Source: Acidovorax sp.
GTDB lineage: Bacteria > Pseudomonadota > Gammaproteobacteria > Burkholderiales > Burkholderiaceae_C
Assembly: GCA_030692685.1 (NCBI GenBank)
Contig: JAUXZO010000061.1
Span: 1 to 64,000 of the forward strand
Length of the DNA: 64,000 bases
Reading direction: 5' to 3'
Shown piece after piece: positions 57,407 to 64,000 of the stretch. The notes beneath the pieces were generated by a model, which saw only the letters and a list, made by a program, of their open reading frames with translations, ran no database searches and was not told the DNA's origin. Every line of letters starts with the position of its first letter. Positions within the stretch are counted from its first letter, which is position 1. The position numbers and the translations under genes are program-made.

Positions 57407-58786
57407 TCACTCGCCAGCGGTTTGCAACGCGCTCAAAAACGACTTGCGCCACCAGTGCACGTCGTGTTCTCGAATGCGGATCATCAGTTTTTGGTGGCGC
57501 GCTTGCCGCTCCGCCAAAGGCATCTGCAGTGCTTGTTGAATGCTGTCCGCCATGCCCTGGGTGTCGTAAGGGTTGACCAGCAGCGCTTCTTTCAGCTGCT
57601 CGGCGGCACCGGCAAACCGTGACAACACCAGCACACCGGGGTCTTCCGGGTCTTGCGCCACCACGTATTCCTTGGCCACCAGGTTCATGCCGTCGCGCAG
57701 CGGTGTGACCAACCCCACCGCCGCCGCGCGGCACAGGCCTGGCACACGTTTGCGGGCCACCATGCGGTGGATGTAGCGCACGGGCATCCAGTCGAGTTCG
57801 CCATAGTCGCCGTTGACGGAGCCACACAGCCCTTCCAGCTCCTGGCGCAGGTCGCCGTAGGCGTTGACGTCGTCGCGCGTGGGCGAGGCGATCATGATCA
57901 GCGTGGCGCTGTCGCGGTTTTCAGGGTAGCGGTCGAGCAGCTCGCGAAACGCGCGCACGCGTTGCGGAATGCCCTTGGAATAGTCGAGCCGGTCAATGCC
58001 CATCAGCAACCTGCGGCGCGAGTATTCAGCGCGCATGCTTTCGAAGGTTTCCATCGCATCGCTGGCATGGGTGAGCCGGGTGAACTCGTCCACGTCAATA
58101 CCAATGGGGAAGGACTTTACGACCACCGTGGCGCCAAACGCGCGCACGCGGGTGTCGTCCAGCTCTTCGGCACTGCCCTCGTTGCGCACGTAGCGCTTGA
58201 AGTGCGACACATCGGCCTCGCTTTGCAGGCCCACCAGGTCGTAAGCAAACAGTGAGCGCATCAACCATTCGTGCTGCGGGATCGCGGCCATGATGAGGGG
58301 CGGCGGCACAGGGATGTGCAGGAAGAACCCGATGCGCTGCTTGCAGCCCATCGCCCGCAGTTCTGCGGCCAGCGGGATCAAGTGGTAGTCGTGCACCCAG
58401 ATGATGTCGTCGTCGCGCAGCAGGGGAAGCAACTTGCGCGCAAACATCTGGTTCACACGCCGATAGCCCGCGATGTAACTGGAATCGAAGTCTGCCAAGT
58501 CAAGCCGGTAATGGAATACCGGCCACAACACGCTGTTGCTGTAGCCCTGGTAGTAGCTGCGGTGGTCCTCGCTGCAAAGGTCCACGGTGGCCAGCGTTAC
58601 AGGGCCTGCCTGGCGCGTGTGCAGCTCGCTTTCGCCGGGCGTGCCGTCTTCCAGCACATTTCCGCTCCAGCCGAACCACAGGCCGCCAGTCTGGTTGAGG
58701 GCCTCGCCGAGTGCAACAGCAAGGCCGCCTGCTGCGGGCTTGCGCGGGTCTGCTACGCGATTGGAGATAACAACGAGTCTGCTCAT
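57407..58786 (-). CDS. otsA: Trehalose-6-phosphate synthase OtsA
   Basis: A 459-residue GT20 enzyme joining UDP-glucose and glucose 6-phosphate. Visible are [59 protein letters not shown] and the donor site [15 protein letters not shown]. Last gene of otsB-GH15-otsA; 48 bp separate it from the GH15 gene. Confidence 0.97.
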
Positions 58787-58834
58787 CCTTTGATCATCCT
58801 TGCAAAGTTGAGCTTCGGTCTGTGGGACGCAACC

Positions 58835-60640
58835 TCAAATCACGGTGTCCCACGGCGCTGAAAGGCGCACGGCGGCGTTGATCACGCCGACCATCGAATA
58901 GGTCTGCGGGAAGTTGCCCCACATCTCGCGGGTTTCGGGGTGGGTGTCTTCCGACAGCAGGCCCAGCGGGTTGCGGGCGGCCAGCATGGTCTCGAAGATG
59001 GCGCGCGCCTCGGCCTTGCGGCCAATGCGGGCCAGCGCATCAATGCGCCAGAAGGTGCAGATGTTGAACGCTGTTTCGGGCTTGCCAAAATCGTCGGCGG
59101 CCTCGTAGCGGCGCATGTAGGGGCCATCGCACAGGCTTTTTTCCATGGCCTCTACCGTGCTGACGAAGCGCGGGTCGCGCGGGTCGATCAGGCCTACTTC
59201 GGCCATCAGCAGCACGCTGGCATCCAGCTCATTGCCGCCAAAACTTTCGGCAAACGCCTGGCGCGACTCGCACCACGATTTTTCAAGAATCTCGGCGCGC
59301 ATGCGGTCGGCATGATCGCTCCAGTACTGGGCACGGTTGGGCAGTTGCAGCGCACTCGCAATTTTGGCCAGGCGGTCGCAGGCGGCCCAGCTCATCAGTG
59401 CCGACGAGGTGTGTACCCGGGCGCGGGTGCGCAGCTCCCACATGCCGGCGTCGGGCTGGCCATACACCCGCACGGCCTGTTCGCCCACTTGCTCCAGCCG
59501 GGTGAACTCGGCCAGACCCGCGCGGTGCAGCAGCCGGTGGTCTTGGAACGCCTGGGCGGCTCCCAGCACGATGTTGCCGTACACGTCGTGCTGAAAATGC
59601 TCGGCCGCCTGGTTGCCCACACGCACCGGGCCCATGCCGCGGTAGCCTGCCAGCTGCGGCATCATGATCTCGGGCAGCTCACGCTCCAGGCCAATGCCAT
59701 ACAGCGGCTGGATATGGCCGTCGCCCGCGTCCACCACCACGTTGCTCAGCCAACGCAGGTAGTCCTCCATGGTGCCCACTTCAGAAATGCTGTTGAGCGC
59801 GCGCACCACGAAAAACGCATCACGCAGCCAGCAATAGCGGTAGTCCCAGTTGCGCCCACTGTTGGCGGACTCCGGGATGCTGGTGGTCATGGCGGCCACG
59901 ATGGCGCCGGTGTCTTCGTACAGCGACAGCTTGAGCGTGATGGCCGCGCGGATGACGGCCTCCTGCCACTCCAGCGGCACGGCCAGCGCACGGCTCCAGC
60001 CGCGCCAGTAGGTGGTGGTCTCTTGTTCAAACAGCCGTGCGGTGTCGGCAATGCCGTCCGTGAGGGTCTCGTCGGCCCCCAGCAGAAAGTTGTGTTCGCC
60101 GGTCAGCACAAAGGCCTGGCCCGACAGCACATGCGACACGGGCGCATCGGTAGACAAGCGCAGCGTCATGTGCTCGCCCACAAACCGGATGTGGTTGCTG
60201 CCCCGGGTGATGCGCGGCTCGCTCTGGCCCCAGTCGTAACGCACCTTGAGCGCCACCCGGATGCGCGGGGCGCCCTCTATGGGCCGCACCCGGCGCACCA
60301 GTGTCATGGGTCGAAAAAAGCGGGACCGGCTGTAAAAACGCGGCGCAAAGTCGGTGATTTCCACCCCATGCCCGTCCTTGTCGAACAGCTGCGTGCGCAG
60401 GATGGCCGTGTTGGGCTCGTACCACTGGTGCGCCGACGCCAGGTCTTCGATCTCGATGGCAAAGTGGCTGCCCTCGTCACCCGGTTGCAGCAGGGCGTTG
60501 AACACCGGGTCGCCATCAAAACGCGGCAGGCAGCACCACACCATGCGGGCATGGTTGTCGATGAGCGCGCTGATGGCGCAATTGCCGATCATGCCCAGGT
60601 TCAGGGACCCCGTTTGGGGTTCGGAGGCTGCTGTGTTCAT
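58835..60640 (-). CDS. Glycoside hydrolase family 15 protein (trehalase/glucoamylase-like)
   Basis: A 601-residue protein: N-terminal beta-sandwich (SLNLGMIGNCAISALIDNHA, MVWCCLPRFDG) and an (alpha/alpha)6 barrel with NWDYRYCWLRDA and the second acid in LGLLSEDTHP. GH15 includes bacterial trehalases and glucan 1,4-alpha-glucosidases. In this operon, trehalose or its phosphate is the likely substrate. No signal peptide, so cytoplasmic. Overlaps otsB by four bases. Confidence 0.92.
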   Translation of the reverse strand: MNTAASEPQTGSLNLGMIGNCAISALIDNHARMVWCCLPRFDGDPVFNALLQPGDEGSHFAIEIEDLASAHQWYEPNTAILRTQLFDKDGHGVEITDFAPRFYSRSRFFRPMTLVRRVRPIEGAPRIRVALKVRYDWGQSEPRITRGSNHIRFVGEHMTLRLSTDAPVSHVLSGQAFVLTGEHNFLLGADETLTDGIADTARLFEQETTTYWRGWSRALAVPLEWQEAVIRAAITLKLSLYEDTGAIVAAMTTSIPESANSGRNWDYRYCWLRDAFFVVRALNSISEVGTMEDYLRWLSNVVVDAGDGHIQPLYGIGLERELPEIMMPQLAGYRGMGPVRVGNQAAEHFQHDVYGNIVLGAAQAFQDHRLLHRAGLAEFTRLEQVGEQAVRVYGQPDAGMWELRTRARVHTSSALMSWAACDRLAKIASALQLPNRAQYWSDHADRMRAEILEKSWCESRQAFAESFGGNELDASVLLMAEVGLIDPRDPRFVSTVEAMEKSLCDGPYMRRYEAADDFGKPETAFNICTFWRIDALARIGRKAEARAIFETMLAARNPLGLLSEDTHPETREMWGNFPQTYSMVGVINAAVRLSAPWDTVI

Positions 60641-61389
60641 GGTTGGCGTTCTTGGTGGGGGTGGTTGCAGTGGGTGCGTGCGGCCGACAACCAGCCGCGC
60701 AGTGCGGCCGGGGTCATGCAGCGGTGTTGCGCCATGGTCGGGCCTTCGCCCACCTTGATGCCCCAGCCGCCCAGCGCCTGCACCGCAGCAAAGCCCGCTT
60801 CGTCGGTCACATCGTCCCCCACAAAAACGGGGATGCGGCCCGCAAACGGTGCCTGGGTCATGAAGTCGGTAATGGCCTGGCCTTTGTTGCTGCCCCGTGG
60901 CTTGACTTCAAACACGCACTTGCCGCGCATCAGCTCCACGCTGTCCATGCCTTGCATGGCGAGGACCAGCGTGCGGTGGCACAGGTCTTCCAGATGGGGC
61001 GCCATGCGGTAGTGCACCGCCACGCTGGCGCGCTTGGGCTCTACCAGCAAGCCGGGGTGCAGCGCCACCAGCTCGTAGGCGGCACTCAAAATCGGATCAA
61101 GGTCGGGCTGGGCGATAGAGGGGTACGAGGTGTCCGTAAGGCGATATTGGGCGCCGTGTTCGCTGGCCAGCGGCAACCTGAGGGGCGCCAGAAAAATATC
61201 AATGTCCGCCTCGCGCCGGCCCGTCACGATGGCGAGTGCACCCCCCAGTTGGGTGTGTAGCGCACTCAGCGTGGGCACCAGCCCAGACGCGACACGCACT
61301 GCCTCGGGACGCGGCGCCATCTCGGTGAGCGTGCCGTCGAAATCGAGGAAAAGCGCGTGGGCAGTTGTCAGTAATGGGAGCAGCTGCAT
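60637..61389 (-). CDS. otsB: Trehalose-6-phosphate phosphatase OtsB
   Basis: A 250-residue HAD phosphatase with DFDGTLTE (nucleophile Asp), IVTGR, EVKPRGSNKGQAI and GDDVTDEAGF, all standard OtsB motifs. It releases trehalose from its 6-phosphate. Starts at ATG 61389 or 61401. First gene of the operon; the 244 bp upstream, shared with trxC, include no recognisable site. Confidence 0.95.
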   Translation of the reverse strand: MQLLPLLTTAHALFLDFDGTLTEMAPRPEAVRVASGLVPTLSALHTQLGGALAIVTGRREADIDIFLAPLRLPLASEHGAQYRLTDTSYPSIAQPDLDPILSAAYELVALHPGLLVEPKRASVAVHYRMAPHLEDLCHRTLVLAMQGMDSVELMRGKCVFEVKPRGSNKGQAITDFMTQAPFAGRIPVFVGDDVTDEAGFAAVQALGGWGIKVGEGPTMAQHRCMTPAALRGWLSAARTHCNHPHQERQP

Positions 61390-61633
61390 AGATAAAACCA
61401 TAGCAGATTGCGCAAGGCGGGATTCGTTGGAAGGGTGTTTCAAGTCTGGTATTCGCGCGCGTTTTTGTATTTTTTTGTTCGGAGAAAAGGCGTTGGAGGA
61501 CCCAGGGAGCGTTGACGTCGGGCGGTCTGGGGTCACGGTGTGCGCCTTGAAACTCGTGCTTGTGGCCGCATAGTGATGGAGCACACCTTGAGCGTCCCGA
61601 GCGCTCCGTCATCCACCACATTTGCCGCCACCC

Positions 61634-62071
61634 ATGACCGAAGCTCCCCACATCGTCTGCCCACATTGCCACACCACCAATCGCGTGCAGCTTGCCGACC
61701 TGGGCAATGCGCCCGACTGCGGCAAGTGCCACCAGCCCCTTTTCTCAGGCGCGCCGCTGGAGCTGGATGGCAACTCCTTTGACCGCCATGTGGGGCGCAG
61801 CCAGATTCCCGTGCTGGTAGATTTTTGGGCGCCTTGGTGCGGGCCTTGCCTGCAGATGGCGCCTGCATTTGCTCAAGCGGCCCGCGAGCTGGAGCCGCAG
61901 GTGCGCGTGGCCAAGCTCAATACCGAAGCCCATCAGGCCATTGCGGCGCGTTATGCCATCCGCAGCATCCCCACCATGATTCTTTTTAGGCAGGGCAGCG
62001 AAGTGGCCCGCATCTCGGGCGCCCTGGGCGCGGCAGACATCGTGCGTTGGGTGCGTACCGCTGCGGGCTAA
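61634..62071 (+). CDS. trxC: Thioredoxin 2 (TrxC)
   Basis: A 145-residue thioredoxin with N-terminal zinc motifs CPHC (9-12) and CGKC (29-32) and active site WCGPC (C69, C72), which distinguishes TrxC from TrxA. TrxC reduces protein disulfides and is induced by oxidative stress in E. coli. ATG at 61634 after a gap to otsB. It converges with the DoxX gene. Confidence 0.95.
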   Translation: MTEAPHIVCPHCHTTNRVQLADLGNAPDCGKCHQPLFSGAPLELDGNSFDRHVGRSQIPVLVDFWAPWCGPCLQMAPAFAQAARELEPQVRVAKLNTEAHQAIAARYAIRSIPTMILFRQGSEVARISGALGAADIVRWVRTAAG

Positions 62072-62098: not shown

Positions 62099-62145
62099 GC
62101 AGTTCATCGCAGTTCATCGCCGTTCACCGCTGTTCATCTCTGTTA
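62099..62145. repeat. 10-bp tandem repeat AGTTCATCGC
   Basis: Four to five units (AGTTCATCGC twice, then CGTTCACCGC, TGTTCATCTC) lie between the convergent trxC and DoxX genes and reach the DoxX stop codon. Confidence 0.7.
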
Positions 62146-62616
62146 GCGGATGCCCAGTACCCGGTCCAGCGACACGTTGCCCGCACCGCGCCCGGCCAGG
62201 TACAGCATCAGCCCCGCCCAAGACAGGTGCGTGGGCCAGGCATCGGGGTAGACAAAGACCTGGATCACCAGCGTCATGCCCAGCAGCGCCAGAGCCGACA
62301 GTCGTGTGAACAGGCCCAGCACCAGCAGGATGGGAAACACATGCTCTGCCACGGTAGCCATCTGCGCGGCCAGCTCGGGCGGCAGCAGGGGCAGTTTGTA
62401 TTCCTCGCGGAACAAGAAATAGGCGCTGTCGGATACCGTGAACCAGCCGTCCACCTTGGTGCGCGCCGACAGCCAGAAAATGCCCGCGATGGCAATGCGG
62501 TTGACCAGCGCCAGCAGGCTGTGCGGCGTGCCCAACGTGACGATGTCCGCCGCGCGGGCCAGCATTGCGCGTGGGCCCTTGGCGGGTGCTGTGGGGTAGT
62601 GGGTGGTGTGGTTCAT
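62143..62616 (-). CDS. DoxX-family membrane protein of a bufferin-type operon
   Basis: A 157-residue protein with four helices and a DoxX pattern: [40 protein letters not shown] and [20 protein letters not shown]. In metal-induced gig/buf operons a DoxX gene (GigD-like) follows the MNIO and DUF2063 genes. The start overlaps the DUF2063 stop (ATGA). Confidence 0.88.
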
Positions 62617-63401
62617 GCGGCCTCCTCAGCCTGGGGTGATGGTGTTAAGGGCGCCAGGGCGCCAGCGTTTAGCAACAGGCCTATCAAGGCGGAAAAATCG
62701 GTTTGTGGGTCTGCCCTCAGTGCCTCGGTAGCGGCCGTCTCCAGCGACGCACCGGTGGCGCAGGCGTTCAAAAACACCACGCCCGCCCAGGGCAGTGGAT
62801 GCCACACCACAGCGGCGTGGGGGCGGGTCAGCAGGCCACCATCGCCGATCCATGGCAAGTGTGCTTTGGTGGTTTGGCCATCGCGCTGCAGGGCCCAAAG
62901 CGTGAAGGCCGGGTGTTCATCGCACCAGGTCCAGCGCGCTGCCGGGTGGGGCTGCAGGTGCTGGTGGCCCAGGGTTTCGGGGGCTTGGTGCGCCAGCCAG
63001 TGGGCGGTCAGTGCTGGGGCATAGGCGGCCAGGTGGCATTCCGTCCAGCACCGGTCCCACCGGGCGACGGCAGGCAGGTAGGGCAGTTCTGCGGCGGGTT
63101 CGAAGCTCTGCAGAAAGTTCGCAAACCCTGCGCCGTAGCCCATCAGTCGCCCGTCACTGGGCGGCCGCATGCGGGCATAGACGGCTGCAGCCGCGCGAAA
63201 CCAGTCTTCGCCCACCAGTTTGCACACTGCGGGGTAGTTGGCCTGCAGGGCGTCGATGCAAGCCTTGAGCACCGTGTTGCGGTAAACCGAAAAACCGGGC
63301 TGGGCCTGCAACGCCGCCAGCCAGGGCAGGCACGCCTCGTCTTGGGGCGCATCGGCCAGCAAGGCAGCCGAGAAACCATCCTGAAACGCGGTCAGCTGCA
63401 T
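62613..63401 (-). CDS. DUF2063 (BufC/HvfC-like) protein
   Basis: A 262-residue protein with an N-terminal DUF2063 domain ([53 protein letters not shown]) and a less conserved C-terminal half. In bufferin systems this protein helps the DUF692 oxidase process a Cys-rich precursor, probably as a recognition partner. It overlaps the DUF692 gene by 10 bp. Confidence 0.88.
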
Positions 63402-64000
63402 GCGGCCTCCGCAGGCTGTTTGGCGCTCAACATGCGGTGCGCGTGGTTTCGCTCGTCTAGCAGCTCGTCAAAGCCGGGCAGATTGTCATCGCGCTCGATC
63501 AGGGTGGGGATGGGCCCGGTGCGCTCGATCACGCGCTCATACAGGGCCCACACGGCGGGTGCGATGGCGGTGTCGTGGCTGTCGATGAGCAAGGCGTTGC
63601 CATGCAGCGGGTCCGCATGGTGGCCGGCAAGATGGATCTCGGCCACGGCGTGCAGCGGAAAGGCATCCAGGTACGCCTGCGCACAGGTGCCCAGGTTGTT
63701 GGCGCTGATGTAAACGTTGTTCACGTCCAGCAGCAGGGCGCAACCGGTGCGGCGCACCAGCTCCGCCAAAAAATCTGTTTCGGCCCACTCATGGCCTTCG
63801 AGGTGCAGGTAATGCGTGGGGTTTTCGATGGCAATGGTCCGCTGCAACGCATCCTGGGTGCGGGCAATATTGTTGGCAATGCGGGTGAGCGACGCATGGG
63901 TGCGGGGAAAAGGCAGCAGGTCGGGCAGATACTGCCCGCGCCAGGTGGACCACGCCAGGTGTTCAGACACCAGCACAGGCTCAATGCGCCGTGCCAGGGT
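63392..64000 (-). CDS. DUF692 multinuclear non-haem iron oxidase (BufB-like), 5' end outside window
   Basis: The C-terminal 203 residues of a DUF692/MNIO barrel are visible: EPVLVSEHLAWS, TIAIENPTHYL, ALLLDVNNVYISANNLG, EIHLAGHH, LLIDSHDTAIAPAVW and TLIERDDNLPGFDELLDE. The His, Glu, Asp and Asn residues in these stretches are those that hold two or three iron ions in the family. MNIOs modify Cys residues of precursor peptides. The start and any precursor gene (DUF2282, BufA) lie beyond the right edge. Confidence 0.92.
   Translation of the reverse strand, partial: TLARRIEPVLVSEHLAWSTWRGQYLPDLLPFPRTHASLTRIANNIARTQDALQRTIAIENPTHYLHLEGHEWAETDFLAELVRRTGCALLLDVNNVYISANNLGTCAQAYLDAFPLHAVAEIHLAGHHADPLHGNALLIDSHDTAIAPAVWALYERVIERTGPIPTLIERDDNLPGFDELLDERNHAHRMLSAKQPAEAACS

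Follow-up and report, generated by a model that had tools for sequence, protein, structure and literature searches.

Sigma-F-type boxes at a bufferin-1 operon, a bufferin-2 operon and msrP of an Acidovorax genome, and their association with NrsF

One of the closest described counterparts of the locus analyzed here comes from Caulobacter crescentus, where the genes CC3254-CC3257 encode DUF2282, DUF692, DUF2063 and DoxX proteins next to sigF (CC3253) and nrsF (CC3252), with GTAACC-N16-CGAA as the sigma-F promoter (PMC3511200). The Caulobacter sigma-F regulon further includes the CC2905-2907 operon and yedY (CC2748), and NrsF contains two conserved cysteines (131 and 181), replacement of which raises the expression of the regulon (PMC3511200). 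In the survey of Antoine et al. (2025), for which thousands of bufferin-family members were collected, the Buf1 (DUF2282) family combines a precursor with a Sec signal and four cysteines, an MNIO enzyme, a PME type 1 partner, DoxX and, at times, a sigma factor with NrsF (PMC12452194). In these relatives, the MNIO and its partner turn the central cysteines into thiooxazoles, the outer cysteines form a disulphide, and the peptide is exported via Sec and sequesters copper in the periplasm (PMC12452194); a 5-thiooxazole product is reported in PMC12668002 as well. The gigPABT operon of Cupriavidus metallidurans encodes a small four-cysteine periplasmic protein and the DoxX-like GigT and is flanked by a divergent ECF pair, rpoQ-rsqA (PMC10304878). 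In perchlorate reducers, SigF-NrsF is combined with a methionine sulfoxide reductase in the sigF/nrsF-yedYZ-mrpX hypochlorite system, and no bufferin is mentioned in the available part of that report (PMC4623255).

The window, that is, the whole stretch of 64,000 nucleotides under analysis, comprises bases 1-64000 of contig C222 (76,146 bases) of genome G000; the contig continues for 12 kb to the right, and the stretch 60000-76146 was read for the genes outside the window. The last 1.9 kb of the window are filled by three minus-strand genes that encode a DoxX protein, a DUF2063 protein and an MNIO (DUF692) enzyme, the latter cut by the window edge. The initial annotation had described these genes as a single overlapping operon, and the reading frames, the Pfam matches and the overlaps of 4 bases (DoxX/DUF2063) and 10 bases (DUF2063/MNIO) bear this out. 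The final gene of the operon encodes a DoxX-family membrane protein (62143-62616, minus strand; 157 amino acids; PF07681, 1.7e-18), and the middle one encodes a BufC-like DUF2063 partner of PME type 1 (62613-63401, minus strand; 262 amino acids; PF09836, 2e-20). The latter protein had no match in a search of the NCBIfam profiles and no real match among solved structures in a sequence comparison (best E-value 0.6).

The in-window part of the MNIO gene (63392-64000, minus strand) covers the C-terminal 202 of the 287 codons of the bufferin maturase BufB, and the complete gene spans 63392-64255 on the contig. The possibility that the N-terminal part beyond the edge was something other than DUF692 had been kept in view from the outset; the full-length enzyme matches PF05114 (MbnB_TglH_ChrH, the former DUF692) with an E-value of 2.7e-96 along positions 2-262 of this 263-position profile, so that the off-window part is MNIO sequence as well. 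The solved relatives detectable by sequence are 3bww (1.2e-35), 8hci and MbnB entries, and in the alignment with 3bww, the enzyme has its DVNN and D-S-H stretches opposite DVNN and D-T-H. On our reading, these would be the positions of N175, D242 and H244 that are required for the activity of HvfB (PMC13419390).

Immediately to the right of the window, 27 bases upstream of the MNIO start codon, lies the gene for the precursor peptide BufA1 (64283-64570, minus strand; 95 amino acids), in an open frame that matches PF10048 (DUF2282; 1e-25). A cysteine-containing precursor with a signal peptide, encoded by a DUF2282 gene next to the DUF692 gene, had been predicted for this very place. BufA1 contains four cysteines with the spacing CX10CX7CX20C, and its N-terminus, judged by eye, has the makings of a Sec-type signal, with a charged start, a hydrophobic stretch and a cleavage-like site AIA-Q. 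A search of the whole genome located this gene as the sole DUF2282 match and thus ruled out an MNIO gene devoid of a precursor.

When the MNIO protein served as the query in a scan of 84,980 species genomes, 175 relatives were found, and the 80 best were retained. A tblastn search over these best 80 of the 175 loci found the MNIO and the DUF2063 protein in all 80, the precursor and DoxX in 78 each, and SigF and NrsF in 69 each. The contigs of L057 and L063 begin at the MNIO gene, and these loci were left out of the precursor counts (n = 78); L054 and L061 lack DoxX, their contigs stopping at the DUF2063 gene. Thirty of the best 80 relatives are titled Acidovorax (MNIO 75-84% identical), and the remaining 50 comprise other records from Burkholderiales or betaproteobacteria, some from Pseudomonas and a small number of different origin. 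The nearest relative, L006 (JAHJWB010000015.1), is filed as a gammaproteobacterial MAG; each of the 20 matches that follow it carries Acidovorax in its title, and the filing might be an error in the naming of the record.

The suggestion of the initial annotation that the peptide might be a distinct member of the family did not hold up: BufA1 is 97% identical to the precursor of L006, and it is a standard family member because the CX10CX7CX20C core is common to all 78 precursors found in the relatives. Given that the substrates of the MNIO family are diverse (PMC12452194), one could envisage that the enzyme modifies a peptide of another kind (methanobactin-like, EGKCG-type or of a new class) and that the DUF2282 gene is a bystander. 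This is very improbable: the enzyme scores 361.1 bits against NF050167 (MNIO_BufB, an equivalog; cut-off 310), the only one of the matched NCBIfam equivalogs whose cut-off it passes, and a DUF2282 gene lies upstream of the MNIO gene in 78 of the 80 loci, the contigs of the other two being cut there. That the operon is a decayed remnant has a negligible probability and is refuted at the level of the reading frames because these are open and conserved; the genes overlap or are closely spaced, and compared with L006, the MNIO, DUF2063, DoxX and SigF proteins are 91%, 87%, 93% and 99% identical, respectively.

Next to the operon, and convergent with it, lies a gene for thioredoxin 2 with an N-terminal zinc ribbon (61622-62071). 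As a part of the system it was rejected: apart from its convergent orientation, a relative is found in 40 of the 80 loci, and in two of these it is several kilobases away. Further to the left (57407-61584, minus strand), three adjacent long frames, named by eye from their translations, resemble a trehalose-synthesis set (trehalose-6-phosphate synthase, a GH15-type glycosidase and trehalose phosphatase).

Divergently from bufA1, the contig encodes the ECF sigma factor SigF (64803-65390, plus strand; sigma-70 r2 and r4_2) and NrsF (65431-66072, plus strand; PF06532, 3.7e-71), whose only cysteines are those at positions 130 and 180. Two exact copies of GTAACC-N16-CGAA are present, one facing bufA1 (64688-64713, minus strand) and the other facing sigF (64758-64783, plus strand). 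The gene set is identical to that of Caulobacter, and the adjacent sigF and nrsF and the promoter are as described there; Caulobacter belongs to another bacterial class. The likeness extends to gigPABT with its divergent ECF pair, and no substantive difference from the Buf1 family was found. Almost certainly, then, this is a classical bufferin-1 (gig) operon, bufA1-bufB-bufC-doxX, with divergent sigF-nrsF. As such, the operon is ordinary and adds one further member to a well-populated family.

The box in front of bufA1 is widely conserved. In 74 of the 78 relatives, the 500 bases preceding the precursor gene contain an exact copy, with spacing 16, compared with 8 matches in 15,600 single-base shuffles, and at each of the spacings 10-15 and 17-22 the box is found in none of the 78. 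Among the four relatives without an exact box, two have a box with one mismatch, and the other two (L055 and L061) have neither box nor sigF. Of the 69 loci that contain sigF, 63 have a box that faces it. In seven loci, the box is present and sigF is absent from the fetched flank; all seven genomes encode NrsF elsewhere. A search of the literature combining the motif with NrsF, DUF1109 and ECF found the GTAACC string only in the Caulobacter paper and in an unrelated cancer paper.

Together with their association with NrsF described below, these boxes are computed evidence for sigma-F control of bufA1. The results from C. metallidurans speak against simple sigma-F control in that organism: initiation of gig transcription by the neighboring RpoQ is unsupported by evidence, deletion of rpoQ increases gig expression in metal-treated cells, which the authors attribute to compensation, and rpoQ-rsqA depends on the housekeeping sigma factor (PMC10304878). 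In the available text of that paper, control by RpoQ is only assumed and no gig promoter is named or identified (PMC10304878), whereas a candidate box is seen here, including at one Cupriavidus locus (L082).

At the scale of the genome, the pattern alone is weak evidence because GTAACC and CGAA with spacings of 15-17 have 13 matches, compared with 41 for the reversed control, that is, no enrichment. Seven of the matches have spacing 16, and four of these seven precede bufA1, sigF, a second bufferin operon (Buf2) and msrP. The three others (L093, L094 and L096) are inside other long frames; the L096 match also lies 63 bases before a frame of 443 amino acids, and frames start 152 and 262 bases downstream of the L093 match. 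The msrP and Buf2 boxes likewise overlie open frames on the opposite strand (497 and 207 amino acids, respectively), which are taken to be unused there. The Buf2 operon (contig C150, 109896-112116; L004, 6897-9117) has its exact box 105 bases before the start of a 96-amino-acid precursor with six cysteines (BufA2 of NCBIfam, 98 bits, cut-off 60). The enzyme encoded directly after this precursor is a single chain of 562 amino acids in which the MNIO and DUF2063 domains are fused, a feature of this genome compared with Caulobacter. With the fused protein as the query, 30 loci were retrieved, and 8 of them encode such a single chain; the fusion is not described in the passages on fusions of PMC12452194 and may still have been published. 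In msrP (contig C98, 27942-29031; L089, 1501-2590), which encodes a periplasmic methionine sulfoxide reductase, the exact box is located 88 bases upstream, and the 333-amino-acid protein is MsrP by NCBIfam (488.6 bits, cut-off 207). The Caulobacter counterparts are the CC2905-2907 operon and yedY of the sigma-F regulon. With a completeness of 89.3% and a contamination of 7.09% of the assembly, C150 and C98 might belong to another organism than the window.

The link between the box and NrsF can be gleaned from a sample of 150 genomes of the family, among which 26 encode NrsF, 88 encode DUF2282 and 20 encode both; four of the contigs are equal in length to contigs among the 80 loci above and may thus be common to the two sets. 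For 60 bufA1 genes, regions extending some 900 bases upstream from the match to DUF2282 were compared (one region is cut at a contig end). Twenty of these come from 19 NrsF-bearing genomes, with the genome of the window excluded, G027 represented twice and a weak second match in G105 omitted; the other 40 represent the 40 highest-ranking genomes among the 68 that have DUF2282 and lack an NrsF match. Fourteen of the 20 regions from NrsF-bearing genomes have the exact box, and none of the 40 from NrsF-free genomes does; with up to one mismatch allowed, the counts are 16 of 20 and 0 of 40. For msrP, the 30 best of the 139 genomes with a match were compared, the genome of the window included: the exact box is found in 8 of these 30, namely in 8 of the 10 with NrsF and none of the 20 without it, and shuffled sequences gave 1 match in 6,000. 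One NrsF-free genome (G010) has an msrP box with one mismatch. For Buf2, the precursor was found in 27 of 30 loci, again including the genome of the window (the three precursor-less loci include that of the NrsF-bearing G035), and the exact box is present in all 4 with NrsF and in none of the 23 without it. The significance values (Fisher 2e-9 for the exact bufA1 box, p = 8e-6 for the exact msrP box and p = 6e-5 for the exact Buf2 box) overstate the independence of the data because the sampled genomes share ancestry.

The six of the 20 bufA1 regions from NrsF-bearing genomes that lack an exact box include diverse cases. In G027, the sigF-nrsF pair and a Buf2 operon that encodes a fused enzyme are arranged divergently (L227; contig C186, 18500-25500), with boxes on either side (C186, 22387 on the minus strand and 22749 on the plus strand), and the two DUF2282 genes of this genome have no box; the published survey did not come across such an arrangement (PMC12452194). 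In G071, a box faces sigF and none faces bufA1, and in G140 no box was found. The sole genome of the same genus in the sample, G085, has both the msrP and the bufA1 boxes; its only match to the fused Buf2 chain is the MNIO next to its DUF2282 gene.

Gene content and order, protein families, the cysteine pattern, the promoter boxes and the association between box and NrsF are all direct observations. A further reading, which we consider likely, is that SigF-NrsF in this family is a dedicated guard of periplasmic thiols and methionines, with one box-defined regulon that joins bufferins of types 1 and 2 (the latter with a one-chain MNIO-DUF2063 enzyme in this genome) and MsrP, with a box that comes and goes with NrsF, and with sigF-nrsF that can adjoin Buf2 instead of Buf1.

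By analogy with the published systems, metal or oxidant stress in the periplasm would hit the conserved pair of cysteines in NrsF, the membrane anti-sigma factor, and free SigF, which would then transcribe itself and bufA1BC-doxX from the two divergent promoters. BufB and its DUF2063 partner would convert the two central cysteines of BufA1 into thiooxazoles in the cytoplasm, with the Sec signal as the leader, and after export via Sec, the outer two cysteines would form a disulphide and the peptide would sequester periplasmic copper. The chemistry, the export, the bound metal and the sensed signal of this scheme are taken from published relatives, and so is the protection against copper or gold that the operon may confer. 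A different chief task of the operon, set by what NrsF senses, would be protection against gold, chromate/cadmium or hypochlorite. The response of the Caulobacter SigF-NrsF to chromium and cadmium (PMC3511200), the part of SigF-NrsF in hypochlorite detoxification in perchlorate reducers (PMC4623255) and the identical box at msrP of the same genome are all compatible with such a task, but the characterized bufferins sequester copper (PMC12452194), and both copper and gold induce the Cupriavidus gig operon (PMC10304878), so that this alternative appears unlikely.

The shared box ties a putative copper-sequestering peptide to the repair of methionine sulfoxide. The Caulobacter sigma-F promoter recurs, letter for letter, in front of bufferin operons of Burkholderiales and Pseudomonas, and this conserved box gives the assumed sigma factor control of gig a specific, testable sequence. 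Because the box is conserved in this way and was not seen at bufA1 in 40 sampled NrsF-free members of the family, the driver of gig and bufferin operons outside Caulobacter is directly testable.
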